This document shows, piece after piece, positions 877-7,517 of a stretch of DNA of 7,798 nt; position 1 is the first letter of the stretch; the number at the start of each line of letters is the position of its first letter. Source of the stretch: Deltaproteobacteria bacterium (lineage in GTDB: Bacteria > Desulfobacterota > Desulfobacteria > Desulfobacterales > ETH-SRB1); the NCBI GenBank assembly GCA_019314185.1, contig JAFCZU010000137.1, forward strand, positions 1-7,798. Direction: 5' to 3'. Position numbers and translations under genes: made by a program. Under the pieces are notes generated by a model. The model saw only the letters and a list, made by a program, of their open reading frames with translations. It was not told the DNA's origin and did no database searches.

Positions 877-3800
877 TCATTCTTGAGCCTCGATGATCGT
901 TTTTATGTCCCGAAAGTGGATATCGACGAACCGGACGCTTGTGCCCAGCTCTCCGAGCTTCAGGGGAACTTCAAGATCTTCCGAATTCATCAAATCTTTT
1001 TTCAAGGACTCCATGGCTCCTTCGTCATGCTTCACAAATTCATTGTACATAGCCGCACATAGGGGACACAGGGCGAGGAATTGCGCCTCATGTTCCTTGG
1101 CGAAATGATCTCTGGGAAGCACCTCCACCGCCTCGAAATAGTATTCCCCATCGCGTTTCCTAAAAGGCATCTCTTCTTTGCAGATCTGGCAAATCATCTG
1201 ACCCGCGTCGTTCGTATATTGTTCCTTGAGCCACTGTTTCTCATCAATTGTTTCCTTCGTAATCCGCACGCTTCTGTTCCGTTGTTCGTATTTCTTCTCT
1301 GGGGCCTCGTTTATTTGTTCCGCAAGTCGCTCCTGTCGTCGTTCAGGATTTGTAGAAATTCTTGTTGGGAATGTTGGCTTTTCCTTCTTTGCTAAGATGG
1401 TCGCCTTCCACTGCTCGAACTCTTCGGGATGTCTCCTCAGCAATTCGATGTCTTCAAGAGCAACGTCGAGTTCAGAAGCTCGTTGATTCCGGCGCTTATA
1501 TTCTTCACTACGTTTTTTGGCGTTTTCACCAAATCTTACTCTCTCTATCCATTCCATCCCTTCATCAAAAGGAAAACCTTTGGGCAATTCTTCGCGGGCG
1601 GCATCACAAGGTCGGACGAATTCACCATTCTTCTGAGGGACCCAGGCCTTTTTTTTCAAAACATGTACAAGCTGAGAGTCGGCATATCTTGCCCCGTTGC
1701 TCCAATTCTTCTGGTACTCTGCCTGAAGGTATCGTGGATCCAAAGAAGACATTGTCTTCCAAACCAGATTTGAAAGCTCTAATGATGGGGACTCAAGTAA
1801 CTCATCCAAGCGTTCAATTACATAGTCTCGATTAATAGGAGAAGTGTATCTCTCGCCTGGTACACTCCTGAGATAGTCCAACTGCGGGTTTTCATAACAA
1901 TTAGTATCTGTAACCGGCAATATGTGCTTTACACCAACAGTTTTTGCAAAAGTCACGAGCTTTTCCGTGATTATTTGCTTATTACGGTAGAAATCTGAAA
2001 GTTTTCTGGGGAAATCCTTGTCACTCAACTCGTCATAATATGCTGACAGACCGGTTCGCAAATATGGAGAATCTAAGTATACTTGAGAGGGCTTTGACCA
2101 CATGTCATCGGCTCGCTTGAAGATATAGAAGCCCTCAAACTTTCCCGCCTTAGTTGGGTTTTGTTCAACGAGCTTGATAAAGCGGCGGAGGTCTTTGAAA
2201 TAGGTTTCTTTGTTTGGAATATTTGCTTCATAAGTGTACCGTGATTTCAAGATCCCCTCGATCTCCTCAGTCTCACCAACCTCCCGGACTCCGATTTTTT
2301 CCAAAAACATTCGTGCGGTTGCCTGCTGAGTTTTTTTCTTTCCGGATAGGTATGTCTGGCTGTTTACTCGTGGTAAAGTTTCGTCATGTTCAACACCGTT
2401 ACCTGGAAAGTAACAGCTTTTTCCTATGCTATAGTATCCATCTCTTAGGCGAACAATACGGACATATTCAAGTCGATAGAAATCGTTATCTTCGTTTAAC
2501 TCCTTATAAAGCGTCGAATACATTTGTTGGTGCCATTCTGGTGGGTTAGCAGATAGCCATGCCATGAAGTTTTCATAAGGTCCGTAGGGATACCTCTTTT
2601 TAGATACCTTGTCACAGAGCAAATCTATAAACTCTTCTATATCCCACTTCTCAATTGCCAACCCGGCAAGAAAACGATCCTGATTACTGTTGCGCTGAGA
2701 TGCTCCGATAGCCCACTTGGGCGGTTCATCTTCTTCAACAAGAAACTCAAGGTCTTTTTCCGACAGAAGTTCCTTCAGTGAAGCCTTGGCCTGGAGAAGG
2801 TGCCGCGCTGGGGCATGGGATTTCGAATGTGTTGGCGTCAATGGTTCATTGTTCATCGCCTCGATAATGGATTGACGGATAGGCTCATATCGTTTGGGAA
2901 GGGTATCCACAGGGTTCGGCAGGACGCTAAGAAATTCACCAGTCAGCAAACCAAGATCCCGAATGTCATGCAGAGAAGAAGCCGCTAATTCCGCAAGCAG
3001 GTTGAATAAAGGATCATTGGCCGATGTTTCCTTGATACTAGCGCGACTTAACTCGGGAACAAATGGTGCGTGCAAGTGAAAGCGGAGGCCGGACGTTTCC
3101 TTTTCGGCAGGGAAAAAGACCGCTACGTGACCAAGATTGGCAGGCACGATTTTAAGTTGTTTCGACAGAGCCTTCTTCTGAGAAGTAAAGTCAGAAATCT
3201 TGGGGAGGAATTCGAGGGCATACGCAATGGAAACGCTCGGAATAGGCCTGCCGTCAATCTCTATTGGTGTCGCGAAGAGTAAAAAGTGGGAGCTGGAAGT
3301 TTCCTTGTTACCGGTCTGCTTAAGCACTTCCACATGGTGATCAGAGTGTTGAATCCTCAGAACCTCTCCAGAAATACGACCGCTTATCTTCCAGCTAATA
3401 GCTTCGATGTTGCGCAGGAAAAGCAGTGTGACTTCTGCCAATTCTTCTAGTCCTGCAGCAATTTCCGCGAAGGCAACTTCTGGGGACTTTTGGGGATTAT
3501 TGAAAGGGAATTCAAACCGCGTTTTATTGCCAAGATTTTCGCTTGGTGGAATCTCGACAGGCAGAACTAATTGCTCTATTTTGAAAGAAAAAGTGGGGGA
3601 CCAAATACGTGGGGTTTCAGAGTAGGCGAAAACCGCTTTAAACCCGACCCCAAATCGTCCAATCTTATTCTCCTGACTTTCTTTAGCACCCTTACCGATG
3701 TTTGTAATTCGTTCCACATCCTCCTTCTCAAAGGAACGTCCATTATGTTCGAAAAACAGTGTATTATCGTTGAGGAAAAAGTTTACCTCCGTCGCTCCGG

Positions 3801-3951
3801 TGTCTTCCGCATTTTGAAGTAGTTCATAGATAAAATGCGCTCGGTCGGGGTAGAGCTCCTCAACAATTCTACGGATTCCATAGTACTCTTCGTCAGCAAG
3901 AACATCAGCTAGTTTCTTGCGCCTGCCGTAAAGATTGTCCAAGAAGCTCAT
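877..3951 (-). CDS. Sacsin/HSP90-type (GHKL) ATPase with C-terminal zinc-finger/HNH-like cluster
   Basis: This 1024-residue cytoplasmic protein has an N-terminal GHKL ATP-binding fold of the sacsin/HSP90 type. The N-box is YELLQNAEDTGAT (E43, N47). The second motif is FFEHNGRSF (66-74), where HNG replaces the usual DxG. The lid motif is IGRFGVGFKAVF (97-108). The ATPase module and its transducer-like part extend to roughly residue 300. Residues 300-800 have no motif I can name. Residues 800-890 are strongly charged and probably helical. Near the C-terminus, CQIC (C921, C924), H949, H954 and CPLC (C962, C965) form a treble-clef or HNH-like zinc cluster; the final HNH histidine after CPLC is replaced by AAM, so nuclease activity is doubtful. 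The ATG at 3951 overlaps the upstream SNF2 gene's TGA by four bases and is preceded by GAGGGG. Related sacsin-type ATPases occur in defence and conflict loci. A switch or chaperone-like partner for the SNF2 motor is inference. Confidence 0.9.
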   Translation of the reverse strand: MSFLDNLYGRRKKLADVLADEEYYGIRRIVEELYPDRAHFIYELLQNAEDTGATEVNFFLNDNTLFFEHNGRSFEKEDVERITNIGKGAKESQENKIGRFGVGFKAVFAYSETPRIWSPTFSFKIEQLVLPVEIPPSENLGNKTRFEFPFNNPQKSPEVAFAEIAAGLEELAEVTLLFLRNIEAISWKISGRISGEVLRIQHSDHHVEVLKQTGNKETSSSHFLLFATPIEIDGRPIPSVSIAYALEFLPKISDFTSQKKALSKQLKIVPANLGHVAVFFPAEKETSGLRFHLHAPFVPELSRASIKETSANDPLFNLLAELAASSLHDIRDLGLLTGEFLSVLPNPVDTLPKRYEPIRQSIIEAMNNEPLTPTHSKSHAPARHLLQAKASLKELLSEKDLEFLVEEDEPPKWAIGASQRNSNQDRFLAGLAIEKWDIEEFIDLLCDKVSKKRYPYGPYENFMAWLSANPPEWHQQMYSTLYKELNEDNDFYRLEYVRIVRLRDGYYSIGKSCYFPGNGVEHDETLPRVNSQTYLSGKKKTQQATARMFLEKIGVREVGETEEIEGILKSRYTYEANIPNKETYFKDLRRFIKLVEQNPTKAGKFEGFYIFKRADDMWSKPSQVYLDSPYLRTGLSAYYDELSDKDFPRKLSDFYRNKQIITEKLVTFAKTVGVKHILPVTDTNCYENPQLDYLRSVPGERYTSPINRDYVIERLDELLESPSLELSNLVWKTMSSLDPRYLQAEYQKNWSNGARYADSQLVHVLKKKAWVPQKNGEFVRPCDAAREELPKGFPFDEGMEWIERVRFGENAKKRSEEYKRRNQRASELDVALEDIELLRRHPEEFEQWKATILAKKEKPTFPTRISTNPERRQERLAEQINEAPEKKYEQRNRSVRITKETIDEKQWLKEQYTNDAGQMICQICKEEMPFRKRDGEYYFEAVEVLPRDHFAKEHEAQFLALCPLCAAMYNEFVKHDEGAMESLKKDLMNSEDLEVPLKLGELGTSVRFVDIHFRDIKTIIEAQE
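1057..1191 (-). other. Domain: CxxC...H...H...CxxC zinc cluster of the sacsin-like ATPase
   Basis: This stretch encodes residues 921-965 of the ATPase. Two CxxC pairs (921/924 and 962/965) flank LPRDHFAKEH, which contributes H949 and H954. The layout matches a treble-clef fold as in HNH endonucleases, including the LALCPLC knuckle. The usual catalytic or metal-binding histidine following the second knuckle is absent. I read it as a structural or nucleic-acid-binding zinc finger, possibly a degenerate HNH. Confidence 0.6.
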
Positions 3952-6900
3952 CTGTCAGACCCCTCAACAGAGATTACCCCATATGCAACCGGCTGAGCAG
4001 TAATATCAGCTCTTTCCATTGCGATATCCAATTCTTGAATGCGACGCGCGTAATCCGCTTCAGCCGAATCAATCTGAGACTGCCGCATCCGTCTTATTTT
4101 TTCATCAGTTGCCTGATTAAGTTGGTCTTTAAGTAAGGCAATTCGCGCTCGGTGGCTGATTGTCAGACTTTCACGTCGATATTGTGCCAATTCCTGTGTC
4201 AGGCGCTGGTGTTTTTCGCGCGCCTCTGACCAGAGCTTATAGTGGTGAGCATCAAGCTCGTCCCAGGCTGAGGGTTTGGGGATATTATCTTCGCCGGTTG
4301 GATTCTCTTCAGCTTTTTCAAGGAGTTTGCCCAAATGAGGCGTAACCCGCTCTGAACTTGAAACTGGACACAGAACCATGTCTTCCCTGATACCGTGAAA
4401 CTGCCATTGGTAGATTGCAAACAGGCAATCTCCACGAGGGACAGACCGATCTTTCACCTTTAGTGTTGTTACTACCAGTTTTGTGGTGTCGAATGCTCTG
4501 GACGCTTGTCTTACCAAGGGATGCAAGGGCATGATGAATGCCGTTTCCGGATGCTGGGATGCACAAACAGCATCAAAGGTTACAAGTAGGTGAGGATTGC
4601 CATCCTTTAACCAGTTTTCCCATTCTCTGTACGAGGATGTGTTTTGTCTGAGTAGCTTATGAAAATCCTTCAATAACCGGTTACGGGCCTCCTGGGACAA
4701 GCGCAACGTCTTGAGCGGTTTCTCCCCAAGAATGAATTCCTGCTCTTTTCCAAAGAGTTTCTGTAGATAATTCGTAATAAGATTGCGGATCGCTTCTGGG
4801 GAAAGCCAAAAGCTCGACGCCTCGTTAATCTCTTTCTTCATCTGATCTTCAGGCAGGCGAATGCCAAACAGCTCAACCTGTTTCTGTTCGAGCTCTTCCT
4901 GTTCCTGTATCAAGCGGATTTGATTGTCCGCCAACTGCTGTAGTTTTTCACGGCGTTCGTCATCACTCAGATTGAAATTCTCAGCGATGTTGCGGATTGC
5001 ACTGCTGATTTCACCTAATATCTCTTCGCTGCTACCGAGGGCGTTGTTGAAAACTCCTATGCGCAGCAAACACCGTTCATAAATGTCTGCGTCAACCGTC
5101 CCAGGCGTAATCAGGTTGAAAATAGCGACACTCTCACTTTGTTGTCCCCAGCGGTCGATACGCCCGATTCTCTGCTCGATTCGCATGGGATTCCAGGGTA
5201 AATCGTAATTAATGATACAATCACAGAACTGATAATCCAATCCCTCGCTGCCAATTTCAGAAAACAGCATTAAATCTAAAGCGTTATTGTCTTCCCGCTT
5301 CAACTCAAAACGATTGCGCATTTCGGCACGCTCTTCATCCGGTACACCACCATGCACTAATCCTACGCGGAAACCATCTGCCTTTAGGTGTTGATAAAGA
5401 TAGTTAAGCGTGTGCCGAAAACTGGAAAAGAGCATGACCTTGTTATTGAGTAGCCCTTGTTTGTTCTTAAGAATCTTTCTGATGGCCTCAAGCTTTGGAT
5501 CCTCAGGATCAAGGTTACGCGCTTGTTCCAGAATCATTTTGATTCTTGTTTCTATGACCTCGACCGTTGTCGCAGATGGAGCCTCTCCCGTATTGTCGGC
5601 CTCTTCCCATGCCAATTCGTCAACATGACGATTAAGTATCTCCTGGAGGAAAGGGACAAGGCCGTATAAACAACTCGCTGCCTGCCGTCTGATTGTTGTC
5701 ATCATGAACTTGACATTGGTATCTCCATGAATCTGGCTGAATATTTCTGCTTGAATCTGAAGCAGATCGTCATGGAGCTTCTTCTGTGCCGGGGTAAATT
5801 CAATGACGACAGTTTCCGGTTTTCTTAACGTGAAGTCGCCAATATCCCTCCTGCGGGTTCTGTTAATTATTCCAGCGAATGTATGCAGCGCTTCGAGGTC
5901 AGTAATCGTTTGCACACGCTTTCCTGATGTAATATCGCCACGGAAGAGTTGATTGCGTATTCGGGAGAATTCCGGATTGTTTTGCAGCAATGCCTGTCCC
6001 CACGATGTTGCAGCAGCCCCATCAAGTGCCTCGGCGGCTTTTGCGGTCCATTCCGCCCCCTGACCGCGTGCAAGGTTTACTGCGCGATTTATAAACGGAT
6101 TCGGCTCTGCCATGTGCTCAAAGCTCTCTTGGTCGATAATGAGATCAGGGCGCAGTACATTGAGTAAAATAAAGAGGTCGTAAGTACCCATCTGTATCGG
6201 CGTGGCAGTCAAAAATACGACTGCTTCAGCGTGGTCACAAAAGAATCTTACAGCTTTATGTCTAAATGTATCTGTGTTTCGGATGTGATGGGCTTCGTCC
6301 ACAATAACCAGATCAAACCGGGGCGGTGGGTCCAAATCCAGCAGACCCTTTTTACGTTTTCGCTTGCTATCCGGGCTTGTTCCGTAAAGGAGAGCCTCGT
6401 CAAACAAGGAATAGGGCATGATGACTTTCTGGTATTGCTCGGGCCAAACTCCTTCCATGTCCATTTCGTTAATGCAGTAACGAAGCATCTTGCCATCAAG
6501 ATGACTGAAACGCTCTTCAAAACGTTTCATCTCAATTTGCCATTTGCGTTCAGTTACCAATGGACGAGGGCAAATGATGAGGATGGAACGGACATCACGC
6601 CTGGCCTGTAGCTCACGCAGAATCAACCCTGCTTCAATGGTTTTCCCCACACCAACCCCATCGGCAATGAGTAATCGCGGTCGGTCGGATCGGATAAATT
6701 TCAGAACAGGCCTGAATTGATATGGAATAAAATCAACGCGGGCCGCATTAAGAGAATAAAGCGTCGATAATCCTGGATGTTGTATTTGAAGAGCGGTGAG
6801 ATAGGAGTGGAATTTGTGACAAGGCAAAATAATAGAGTCCTTATCTTTCCGTTCTTTAGCCTGTAACTGGGAGACATAGAATATTTGCGTCTCACCATCA

Positions 6901-7517
6901 ATGAACACGTTGTAACGATTTTCCGGTTTACCCGGCATAATCGACACAACCGCTCCCTTTATTTCAGGATTTGATTTCAAAAAGACAATCTGGCCAGGCT
7001 CAAACTCGGCTGCTTGTGTTTCTTTCCCTGGAGTTGGTTGTGCTTCGTTTGCAGGGGCTTTCGAAATAGAGGTCGCACGCCTTTCGAGCAATGATGTTTT
7101 TGCTGCACGAATCTCCTGAATAAAAGCCTCTTCGGCCTCAATCACCGTGGCGAACCGCTGCAGGGTGTCCATGTCCCGATATACATCTTCCAGCGGAAAT
7201 CCTTCTGTGCCTGCGTGAGCACACCTGTTCCGGACGGTTTGCATCTCTTTAACAAAACGACGAGATTCCGGGGACAGATTCATCTTCATTGAAATCTGGT
7301 ACCAATTTTGATCCAACACCCGAAAAAGAGCAGCAAGATCCAATGATGAGAGGGAGACCATTCCTTTTTGTTCGACTCGTCGCTGTTGCTGAAAGGACAG
7401 CTTGTCCACCACAGCATCTTTCCACCAGTTATCGAAAAGTGAAGGCAGTACCCTTTCAAGGTATCTTACTATATGCTTGGTTGCCTTTTGTAGCAAAATA
7501 TTCAAAATTTTTTCCAT
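3948..7517 (-). CDS. SNF2/RapA-type DNA translocase with N-terminal Swt1-like HEPN domain
   Basis: This is a 1189-residue, soluble, multidomain protein. Residues 1-130 are helical and contain VRNRCAHAG (95-103), whose R96-N97-x3-H101 is the HEPN ribonuclease signature, in a Swt1-type context. Residues 173-218 (FEPGQIVFLK... RYNVFIDGE... VSQL) resemble a small Tudor/SH3-like barrel. The SNF2 core follows: GVGVGKT (287-293, Walker A), VDEAHH (406-411, motif II), LTATP (436-440, III), FSSF (697-700, IV), SEIGSEGLDYQ (753-763, V) and EQRIGRIDRWGQ (781-792, VI). All key residues are present, so ATPase and duplex-translocation activity is expected. The C-terminal 350 residues include charged, coiled-coil-like stretches at about 850-895 and 1090-1165 and end in a RapA-like tail. 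The ATG at 7517 has an in-frame TAA twelve bases upstream, which fixes the maximal frame; its SD (AGAAG, three-base spacing) is weak. It is the first gene of the pair. RapA itself lacks a HEPN domain, and no DISARM core gene is present. A defence role is inferred. Confidence 0.93.
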   Translation of the reverse strand: MEKILNILLQKATKHIVRYLERVLPSLFDNWWKDAVVDKLSFQQQRRVEQKGMVSLSSLDLAALFRVLDQNWYQISMKMNLSPESRRFVKEMQTVRNRCAHAGTEGFPLEDVYRDMDTLQRFATVIEAEEAFIQEIRAAKTSLLERRATSISKAPANEAQPTPGKETQAAEFEPGQIVFLKSNPEIKGAVVSIMPGKPENRYNVFIDGETQIFYVSQLQAKERKDKDSIILPCHKFHSYLTALQIQHPGLSTLYSLNAARVDFIPYQFRPVLKFIRSDRPRLLIADGVGVGKTIEAGLILRELQARRDVRSILIICPRPLVTERKWQIEMKRFEERFSHLDGKMLRYCINEMDMEGVWPEQYQKVIMPYSLFDEALLYGTSPDSKRKRKKGLLDLDPPPRFDLVIVDEAHHIRNTDTFRHKAVRFFCDHAEAVVFLTATPIQMGTYDLFILLNVLRPDLIIDQESFEHMAEPNPFINRAVNLARGQGAEWTAKAAEALDGAAATSWGQALLQNNPEFSRIRNQLFRGDITSGKRVQTITDLEALHTFAGIINRTRRRDIGDFTLRKPETVVIEFTPAQKKLHDDLLQIQAEIFSQIHGDTNVKFMMTTIRRQAASCLYGLVPFLQEILNRHVDELAWEEADNTGEAPSATTVEVIETRIKMILEQARNLDPEDPKLEAIRKILKNKQGLLNNKVMLFSSFRHTLNYLYQHLKADGFRVGLVHGGVPDEERAEMRNRFELKREDNNALDLMLFSEIGSEGLDYQFCDCIINYDLPWNPMRIEQRIGRIDRWGQQSESVAIFNLITPGTVDADIYERCLLRIGVFNNALGSSEEILGEISSAIRNIAENFNLSDDERREKLQQLADNQIRLIQEQEELEQKQVELFGIRLPEDQMKKEINEASSFWLSPEAIRNLITNYLQKLFGKEQEFILGEKPLKTLRLSQEARNRLLKDFHKLLRQNTSSYREWENWLKDGNPHLLVTFDAVCASQHPETAFIMPLHPLVRQASRAFDTTKLVVTTLKVKDRSVPRGDCLFAIYQWQFHGIREDMVLCPVSSSERVTPHLGKLLEKAEENPTGEDNIPKPSAWDELDAHHYKLWSEAREKHQRLTQELAQYRRESLTISHRARIALLKDQLNQATDEKIRRMRQSQIDSAEADYARRIQELDIAMERADITAQPVAYGVISVEGSDR
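3960..3965 (-). promoter_or_regulatory. Shine-Dalgarno site of the sacsin-like ATPase gene
   Basis: GAGGGG on the minus strand is eight bases before the ATG at 3951. It lies inside the last codons of the SNF2 gene, so the ATPase gene can be re-initiated on the same message as well as translationally coupled through the ATGA overlap. Confidence 0.55.
7128..7517 (-). other. Domain: Swt1-like HEPN domain of the SNF2 protein
   Basis: This encodes residues 1-130 of the translocase. The domain is helical with a terminal VRNRCAHAG block, where R96 and H101 form the R-x4-H catalytic pair typical of HEPN RNases (codons at 7232-7230 and 7217-7215). N97 directly after the arginine is the commonest form of an active motif. 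Swt1-type HEPN domains are known from the eukaryotic Swt1 endoribonuclease and from prokaryotic conflict proteins. Catalytic activity is predicted from the motif only. Confidence 0.65.

Follow-up and report, generated by a model that had tools for sequence, protein, structure and literature searches.

The stretch of DNA analysed here (the window) comprises 7,798 nucleotides (nt) of contig JAFCZU010000137.1 from a Deltaproteobacteria bacterium (GCA_019314185.1) and carries two long, coupled genes, both on the minus strand, as are all features of the window described below. Gene A (3948..7517) encodes a protein of 1189 amino acids that joins a Swt1-type HEPN domain to a RapA/DrmD-type SNF2 protein, and gene B (877..3951) encodes a sacsin-type GHKL ATPase of 1024 amino acids with a degenerate HNH domain. 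The two open reading frames (ORFs) overlap at an ATGA (3948..3951; the junction reads ...cagATGAgc) that holds both the TGA stop of A and the ATG start of B. An earlier reading of the sequence alone (the original prediction) had described two large intact ATPase genes coupled by ATGA, and this was correct; both ORFs are open and their key motifs are present. Relatives were numerous at E ≤ 1e-3 (6969 for gene A and 2871 for gene B, from approximately 8000 scored candidates each). The A-B pair looks like an undescribed two-part system, present in many bacteria, that acts against viruses or plasmids.

Genes A and B are nearly always adjacent

The association of the two genes was analysed from either side. 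For the B-anchored set, a GTDB scan gave 467 confirmed loci, of which the best 80, and hence only the closest relatives, were examined by comparing ORFs by BLAST. Gene A lay upstream of B in 71 of the 77 informative loci; L027, L030 and L052 were left out as uninformative because they start too near B. Sixty-four of the 71 are complete pairs, with A or B cut or split in L021, L034, L041, L047, L066, L067 and L070; the gap between the two genes is 132 nt in L015 and 512 nt in L068. In five loci (L023, L024, L028, L038 and L058) B stands behind a different, DrmD-like SNF2 gene with type III Mod and Res genes, and L049 is a B locus without SNF2. An Abi_C gene lies between SNF2 and Mod in L024, and a homologue of it is present in L023.

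For the A-anchored set, genomes from four groups were searched with A. This gave 29 matches scoring 700 bits or more, found in 3 of 289, 4 of 369 and 5 of 343 genomes of three groups, and in 17 of 84 Poribacteria. B was found downstream on the same contig in 26 of 27 informative loci, the uninformative ones being G628 and G1076, where A stops at the contig end. Excluding the seven A loci common to both sets (G001, G011, G018, G019, G022, G089 and G1053), this figure was 19 of 20. The sole informative exception (G1075, locus L093) is a decayed pair in which A ends early and a short fragment of B remains. The distance from A to B is 1.2–3.7 kb in 5 of the 26 loci (L095–L099), where the intervening sequence encodes, respectively, an AAA ATPase, a 672-amino-acid frame, a 613-amino-acid frame whose end is B-like, an additional GHKL protein and a short GHKL protein. 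The GHKL-type genes that separate A from B in L097, L098 and L099 are second copies, partial or split. Six SNF2 matches scored below 400 bits; five of these are in genomes without B at E ≤ 1e-15, and the sixth genome (G108) has B on another contig.

The 85 rows of complete pairs represent 83 distinct pairs (L019 equals L085, and L075 equals L108). With ORFs taken from the first start, A and B overlap by exactly 4 nt in 38 of these 83 and lie within 60 nt of each other in 69. Judged by gene order, A-B is an obligate-looking operon; the original prediction had turned on how often homologues are adjacent, and from B as from A they nearly always are.

Gene A combines a RapA-like motor with a HEPN domain

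Both halves of the motor were recognised in Pfam above cut-off (SNF2-rel_dom, 63 bits; Helicase_C, 75.1 bits). The SNF2 translocase core (A 233–845; 4983..6821) contains the Walker A sequence ADGVGVGKT (A 285–293; 6639..6665) and the Walker B sequence DEAH (A 407–410; 6288..6299). In an alignment of 121 rows, made up of the window and the 120 relatives listed as nearest to it, the Walker A residue K292 and D407, E408 and H410 were kept in all 121. The core is preceded by a small beta-rich domain (A 172–230; 6828..7004) with strands at 177–220 in a structure model, which by analogy with RapA and the BR helicases may be Tudor/SH3-like (PMC12839542). It is followed by a C-terminal alpha/beta region that is RapA-like by alignment (A 888–1068; 4314..4856), in which no nuclease motif was recognised by eye, and by long, coiled-coil-like helices (A 1082–1168; 4014..4274). 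The alignment to RapA spans A 226–1187, and A has the RapA-like SNF2 architecture throughout, with a small N-terminal domain, an SNF2 core and an aligned C-terminus. A nevertheless scores below cut-off for the NCBIfam equivalogs of both RapA (184 bits versus 576) and DrmD (307.3 bits versus 610).

The HEPN_Swt1 domain (A 15–126; 7140..7475) matches Pfam PF18731 with 59 bits against a cut-off of 27.5. Its active-site motif, RNRCAH (R96–H101; 7215..7232), mostly reads RN[RK]WAH in relatives; R96 and H101 were kept in all 120 gap-free rows of the alignment, and in a more diverse set of 52 distinct A genes with HEPN, 50 showed the pattern R-[ND]-x3-H. The domain is a putative RNase whose active-site motif is usually retained. 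Residue 99 (7221–7223) is Cys in the window, as in 4 of the 120 relatives, and Trp in 115 of the 121 rows.

The HEPN domain is optional

The HEPN domain is present in the window and in 52 of 82 distinct scorable pairs (L020, in which A is cut, could not be scored), and absent from the other 30. Pairs lacking it include 14 from Poribacteria as well as L078, L080 and L087, which are near relatives of the window. On a tree of A at least 10 changes in HEPN status are needed, seven of them forced by well-supported branches; the tree was built quickly, contains several long branches and does not distinguish gains from losses. Because the domain is missing from 30 of 82 pairs with at least seven forced changes, we regard HEPN as an optional, add-on effector rather than as part of the core, the constant part being, as predicted from these sequences, the motor and its GHKL partner.

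The original prediction had made HEPN the obligatory effector, licensed by the GHKL ATPase. In a fuller form of this idea A would sense foreign DNA and B would license an essential HEPN RNase, leading to abortive infection. The motif is indeed nearly invariant where the domain exists, and in those 52 pairs the domain sits at the N-terminus of A; this account is nonetheless unlikely in our estimation, given the HEPN-less pairs, near relatives of the window among them, and the number of forced changes, and HEPN as an obligatory effector was not borne out.

For most A genes that lack HEPN, the similarity to A begins near residue 157–175. L079 has an unrelated A start with no Pfam match, and L080 has a DUF4926 domain in place of HEPN, with an overlapping DUF6883 gene (L080:6199–7061) before A. 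In rhizobia (L001, L002, L003 and L015) an ORF of 176–184 amino acids, of no known family, overlaps the start of the HEPN-less A; a tentative sigma-like reading of it had no Pfam support and was dropped.

Gene B is a fast-evolving sacsin-type ATPase

B matched the Pfam family SACS (76.9 bits; cut-off 32.8) and the NCBIfam family P_loop_sacsin (96.3 bits; cut-off 50). Within its GHKL domain (B 26–200; 3352..3876) the N-box ELLQNAED (B 43–50; 3802..3825) is invariant in 87 of 87 B sequences, E43, N47 and D50 included; E43 and N47 correspond to the GHKL catalytic Glu and Asn. The residues GxFGxGFK of the G box, GRFGVGFK in the window (B 98–105; 3637..3660), are likewise invariant in all 87. A further GHKL box usually reads DxGxG; at the corresponding positions, B 69–71, all 87 sequences read H69-N/D-G71. 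The middle of the protein contains a module (B 547–675; 1927..2313) that is found in tandem in some relatives, with three copies in P0010–P0014 and two in P0029 by BLAST.

Towards its C-terminus B has a McrA-type HNH fold (B 913–988; 988..1215), which aligns to residues 204–281 of the HNH domain of Escherichia coli McrA (6ghc; E = 1.1e-6). The zinc ligands are retained (C921 and C962 in 87 of 87 B sequences, C924 in 86 and His or Cys at 965 in 85). In contrast to McrA, where the catalytic sequence is EVHH, B aligns EAVE at this position, with V942 and E943 in place of the catalytic His pair, and none of the 87 aligned sequences has His at 942 or 943. B is therefore probably not a standard HNH nuclease, although its zinc ligands are kept, and an active nuclease was rejected as a candidate. 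A pattern for the zinc motif was found in 73 of 85 B sequences and not in the other 12, some of which have a cut ORF or a longer end; a loose 'HH' pattern matched 11 of these 73, but when read by eye the His residues fall after the catalytic pair of McrA. The 'zinc cluster' of the original prediction stands as regards the ligands and is more exactly a degenerate McrA/HNH domain.

Among the 83 distinct pairs and the window, mean pairwise identity was 52% for A and 35% for B, with A exceeding B in 98.5% of 3486 comparisons. As B diverges faster, is sometimes expanded by modules and is also present beside other restriction machinery, it is the better candidate for recognition.

Genomic surroundings and distribution

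The distribution of the pair crosses phyla and is sparse in three of the four groups sampled. Plasmid records matching B numbered 22, of which three cover at least 80% of B, and the pair itself was found on rhizobial plasmids, one of them conjugative. The plasmid loci adjoin an ABC-three-component set, a Cap4-type nuclease or, on the conjugative plasmid, a RecB-like nuclease. A search of viral contigs with a single sequence found no relative of B. A stress module unrelated to defence, in which a RapA-like protein would remodel RNA polymerase and B would be an Hsp90/sacsin-like chaperone, appears very improbable to us beside this mostly sparse cross-phylum spread and plasmid carriage, the optional toxin-like domain and the restriction genes beside some loci.

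Some relatives have BREX or Drt genes beside them, or restriction genes of type I or type III. L014 has the order Mod-Res-A-B, and in L087 hsdR lies upstream of the pair. In a PADLOC scan, 114 proteins flanking 11 pairs were set against 127 control proteins taken from the genomes of those pairs; two further loci, L041 and L056, were left out together with their controls. Among the matches listed, the flank families at E ≤ 1e-100 were PDC-S68, PglZ, BrxL, Drt2, type III MTase and type III REase, of which the last two are probably the Mod and Res of L014, one of the 11 pairs. At E ≤ 1e-15, 77 families were matched in the flanks and 47 in the controls.

These neighbours raise the possibility that A and B are accessory DNA-processing subunits of a restriction-type system that need a nuclease or methylase in trans, in the manner of DISARM or type III restriction-modification (R-M). 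The five SNF2-Mod-Res-B operons, the Mod-Res-A-B order of L014, the hsdR of L087 and the closeness of A to DrmD are all consistent with such a role. When Mod and Res of L024 were compared by BLAST with the 85 pair rows, however, both were found only in L014 and Res alone in L082 (other R-M types were not systematically searched), and we consider dependence of this kind to be doubtful.

Of 10 poribacterial genomes tested, 7 have an Hfq-like protein (E ≤ 1e-49) at A-B or no more than approximately 3 kb away; it occupies four positions around the pair, including either end of the open frame of B. The domain moves around the poribacterial loci L053, L094, L098, L101, L104, L105 and L107, and in some of them it is part of the B frame itself (for example L101; 29.6 bits versus a cut-off of 27). 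In a control at the same E limit, the protein was present in 8 of 17 genomes with A, in one of which (G1072) it is on a different contig from A, versus 11 of 67 without A (one-sided p = 0.012). At 12 loci from genomes without A (L123–L134) it usually adjoins the same kind of gene, which we take to be export-type; four of the 12 have it as a fusion with an A-like small domain, and in L132 a B-like C-terminal piece remains. Its candidacy as a component is weakened by this occurrence in genomes without A; rather than being a partner, it may mark a site that is shared.

In the window, a third candidate gene (gene C, 761–291, 156 amino acids from ATG; listed among the ORFs from TTG 782) lies approximately 115 nt beyond B on the same strand. 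Searches of Pfam, NCBIfam and PADLOC gave it no family above any cut-off shown, and BLAST against the first 84 loci gave nothing at E ≤ 1e-4; no match was found in 10 genomes of related loci either, a result that carries no weight as it lacked a positive control. With no family and no match in the loci of relatives, gene C was not counted as a component. Promoter and terminator scans of the window gave counts within shuffled expectation, Rfam and tRNA scans were empty, and the only repeats were short and in two copies.

Comparison with known systems

None of the named system models searched in PADLOC and NCBIfam covers the A-B pair, which answers the concern in the original prediction that it might match one; the best single-gene matches were DrmD for A and TmtA for B. 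No paper describing the pair was found in a search that covered few subscription journals and did not cover bioRxiv.

DrmD of class 1 DISARM is of the same SNF2 type as A, and is its best model in both PADLOC (388 bits over A 172–1151) and NCBIfam; A differs in its extra HEPN domain and in having a GHKL ATPase as partner. DISARM is further defined by DrmA, DrmB, DrmC and a methylase, none of which is encoded by the three candidate genes seen in the window, a stretch of 7.8 kb that may be truncated. A also shares its small N-terminal beta domain, SNF2 core and RapA-like C-terminus with RapA, with BrxHII of BREX type 3 and with the DUF499-centred BR/Hma helicases. A 2026 study of BREX reports RapA-like helicases both in BREX type 3 and in BR systems, and describes HEPN as a backup effector on DUF499; in type-1 BR systems HEPN is optional too, being fused to DUF499 in 1370 of 2446 taxa (PMC12839542). 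In A-B, by contrast, HEPN is on the helicase itself and the partner is sacsin-type; DUF499/BrxC, a methylase and PglZ are likewise absent from the three candidate genes of the possibly truncated window.

For B, the best PADLOC match was TmtA of Tiamat (211.5 bits over B 26–782), spanning model positions 30–802 of 1302 with no curated cut-off shown. The TmtA models are longer (1063–1782 positions), and Tiamat works as a single gene, whereas B is tied to A. Compared with human sacsin, HEPN is here on the partner protein, a degenerate HNH is present instead, and no DnaJ or ubiquitin-like part was found. VcSduA belongs to the Shedu proteins and has a GHKL ATPase domain that is proposed to control an effector; its phage defence has been tested (PMC12137116). 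Unlike A-B it is a single protein with an active PD-(D/E)xK nuclease and no SNF2 partner.

Two earlier studies bear on the combination. A 2013 survey of HEPN domains lists as active a Swt1-HEPN fused to SWI2/SNF2 (WQE_15321), a fusion like that of A, and discusses HEPN in sacsin; the part of its text available mentions neither a sacsin-type partner nor an optional HEPN for this protein (PMC3710099). A 2008 study linked GHKL proteins of the MORC type to R-M operons, some of which also have SWI2/SNF2 helicases and HNH nucleases, and these predicted restriction operons resemble A-B in combining GHKL, SNF2 and HNH-type components (PMC2292703). MORC belongs to another GHKL branch than B, and neither sacsin nor HEPN is mentioned by name in that text; within the literature seen, this link is the nearest published idea to A-B.

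A candidate two-component defence module

With about even confidence we read A-B as a two-component defence module against mobile DNA, with B as sensor or gate, A as a conserved motor and HEPN as a detachable RNase. The case for a role in defence comes from a distribution that is mostly sparse, from carriage on plasmids, from family resemblance and from a modest signal among neighbouring genes. B would be a fast-evolving sensor and ATP-driven clamp, its variable middle and zinc domains recognising a trigger that comes from a phage or plasmid. ATP-bound B would then engage A, which would move on double-stranded DNA and block or strip the replication or transcription complexes of the invader. 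In HEPN-bearing pairs the activated complex would also let HEPN cut RNA and stop the cell, as a second, self-directed layer; in pairs without HEPN the block alone, or another module, would act.

Several observations weigh against this defence reading. The faster divergence of B could reflect weaker constraint rather than recognition, and with H69 in place of the usual Asp its preferred nucleotide may not be ATP. RapA is a housekeeping RNA polymerase factor, and the HEPN motif is absent from two of the 52 diverse HEPN domains (L033 and L054). Neighbouring defence genes, a check named in the original prediction, were seen at those loci beside restriction, BREX or Drt genes, but enrichment over controls was only modest, with at most 7 of 114 flanking proteins matching at E ≤ 1e-100 versus 1 of 127 control proteins (the regulator RtcR; one-sided p = 0.023); at E ≤ 1e-15 a type II methylase, a reverse transcriptase and a type IV Cas7 were matched in the controls too, and several poribacterial pairs adjoin ordinary-looking genes.

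A more specific version of the defence reading is possible but clearly more tentative: A-B may be a distinct defence type that rests on two ATPases from different superfamilies, in which a hypervariable GHKL sensor of the sacsin type gates a conserved RapA/DrmD-type motor and reads its trigger with a McrA-like zinc domain that is nuclease-dead, and in which the add-ons (the HEPN RNase; DUF4926/DUF6883; possibly Hfq-like RNA binders) are interchangeable. If this version held, a bacterial relative of sacsin, together with HEPN, would be placed in phage defence.

If A-B is a defence module at all, a widespread two-gene system would join SNF2-centred defence, and would offer a small bacterial setting for a sacsin-type GHKL ATPase with HEPN, a combination also present in human sacsin. 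It would further mean that effectors are exchanged on a constant motor, and natural pairs with and without HEPN would therefore separate the block on the invader from shutdown of the cell.

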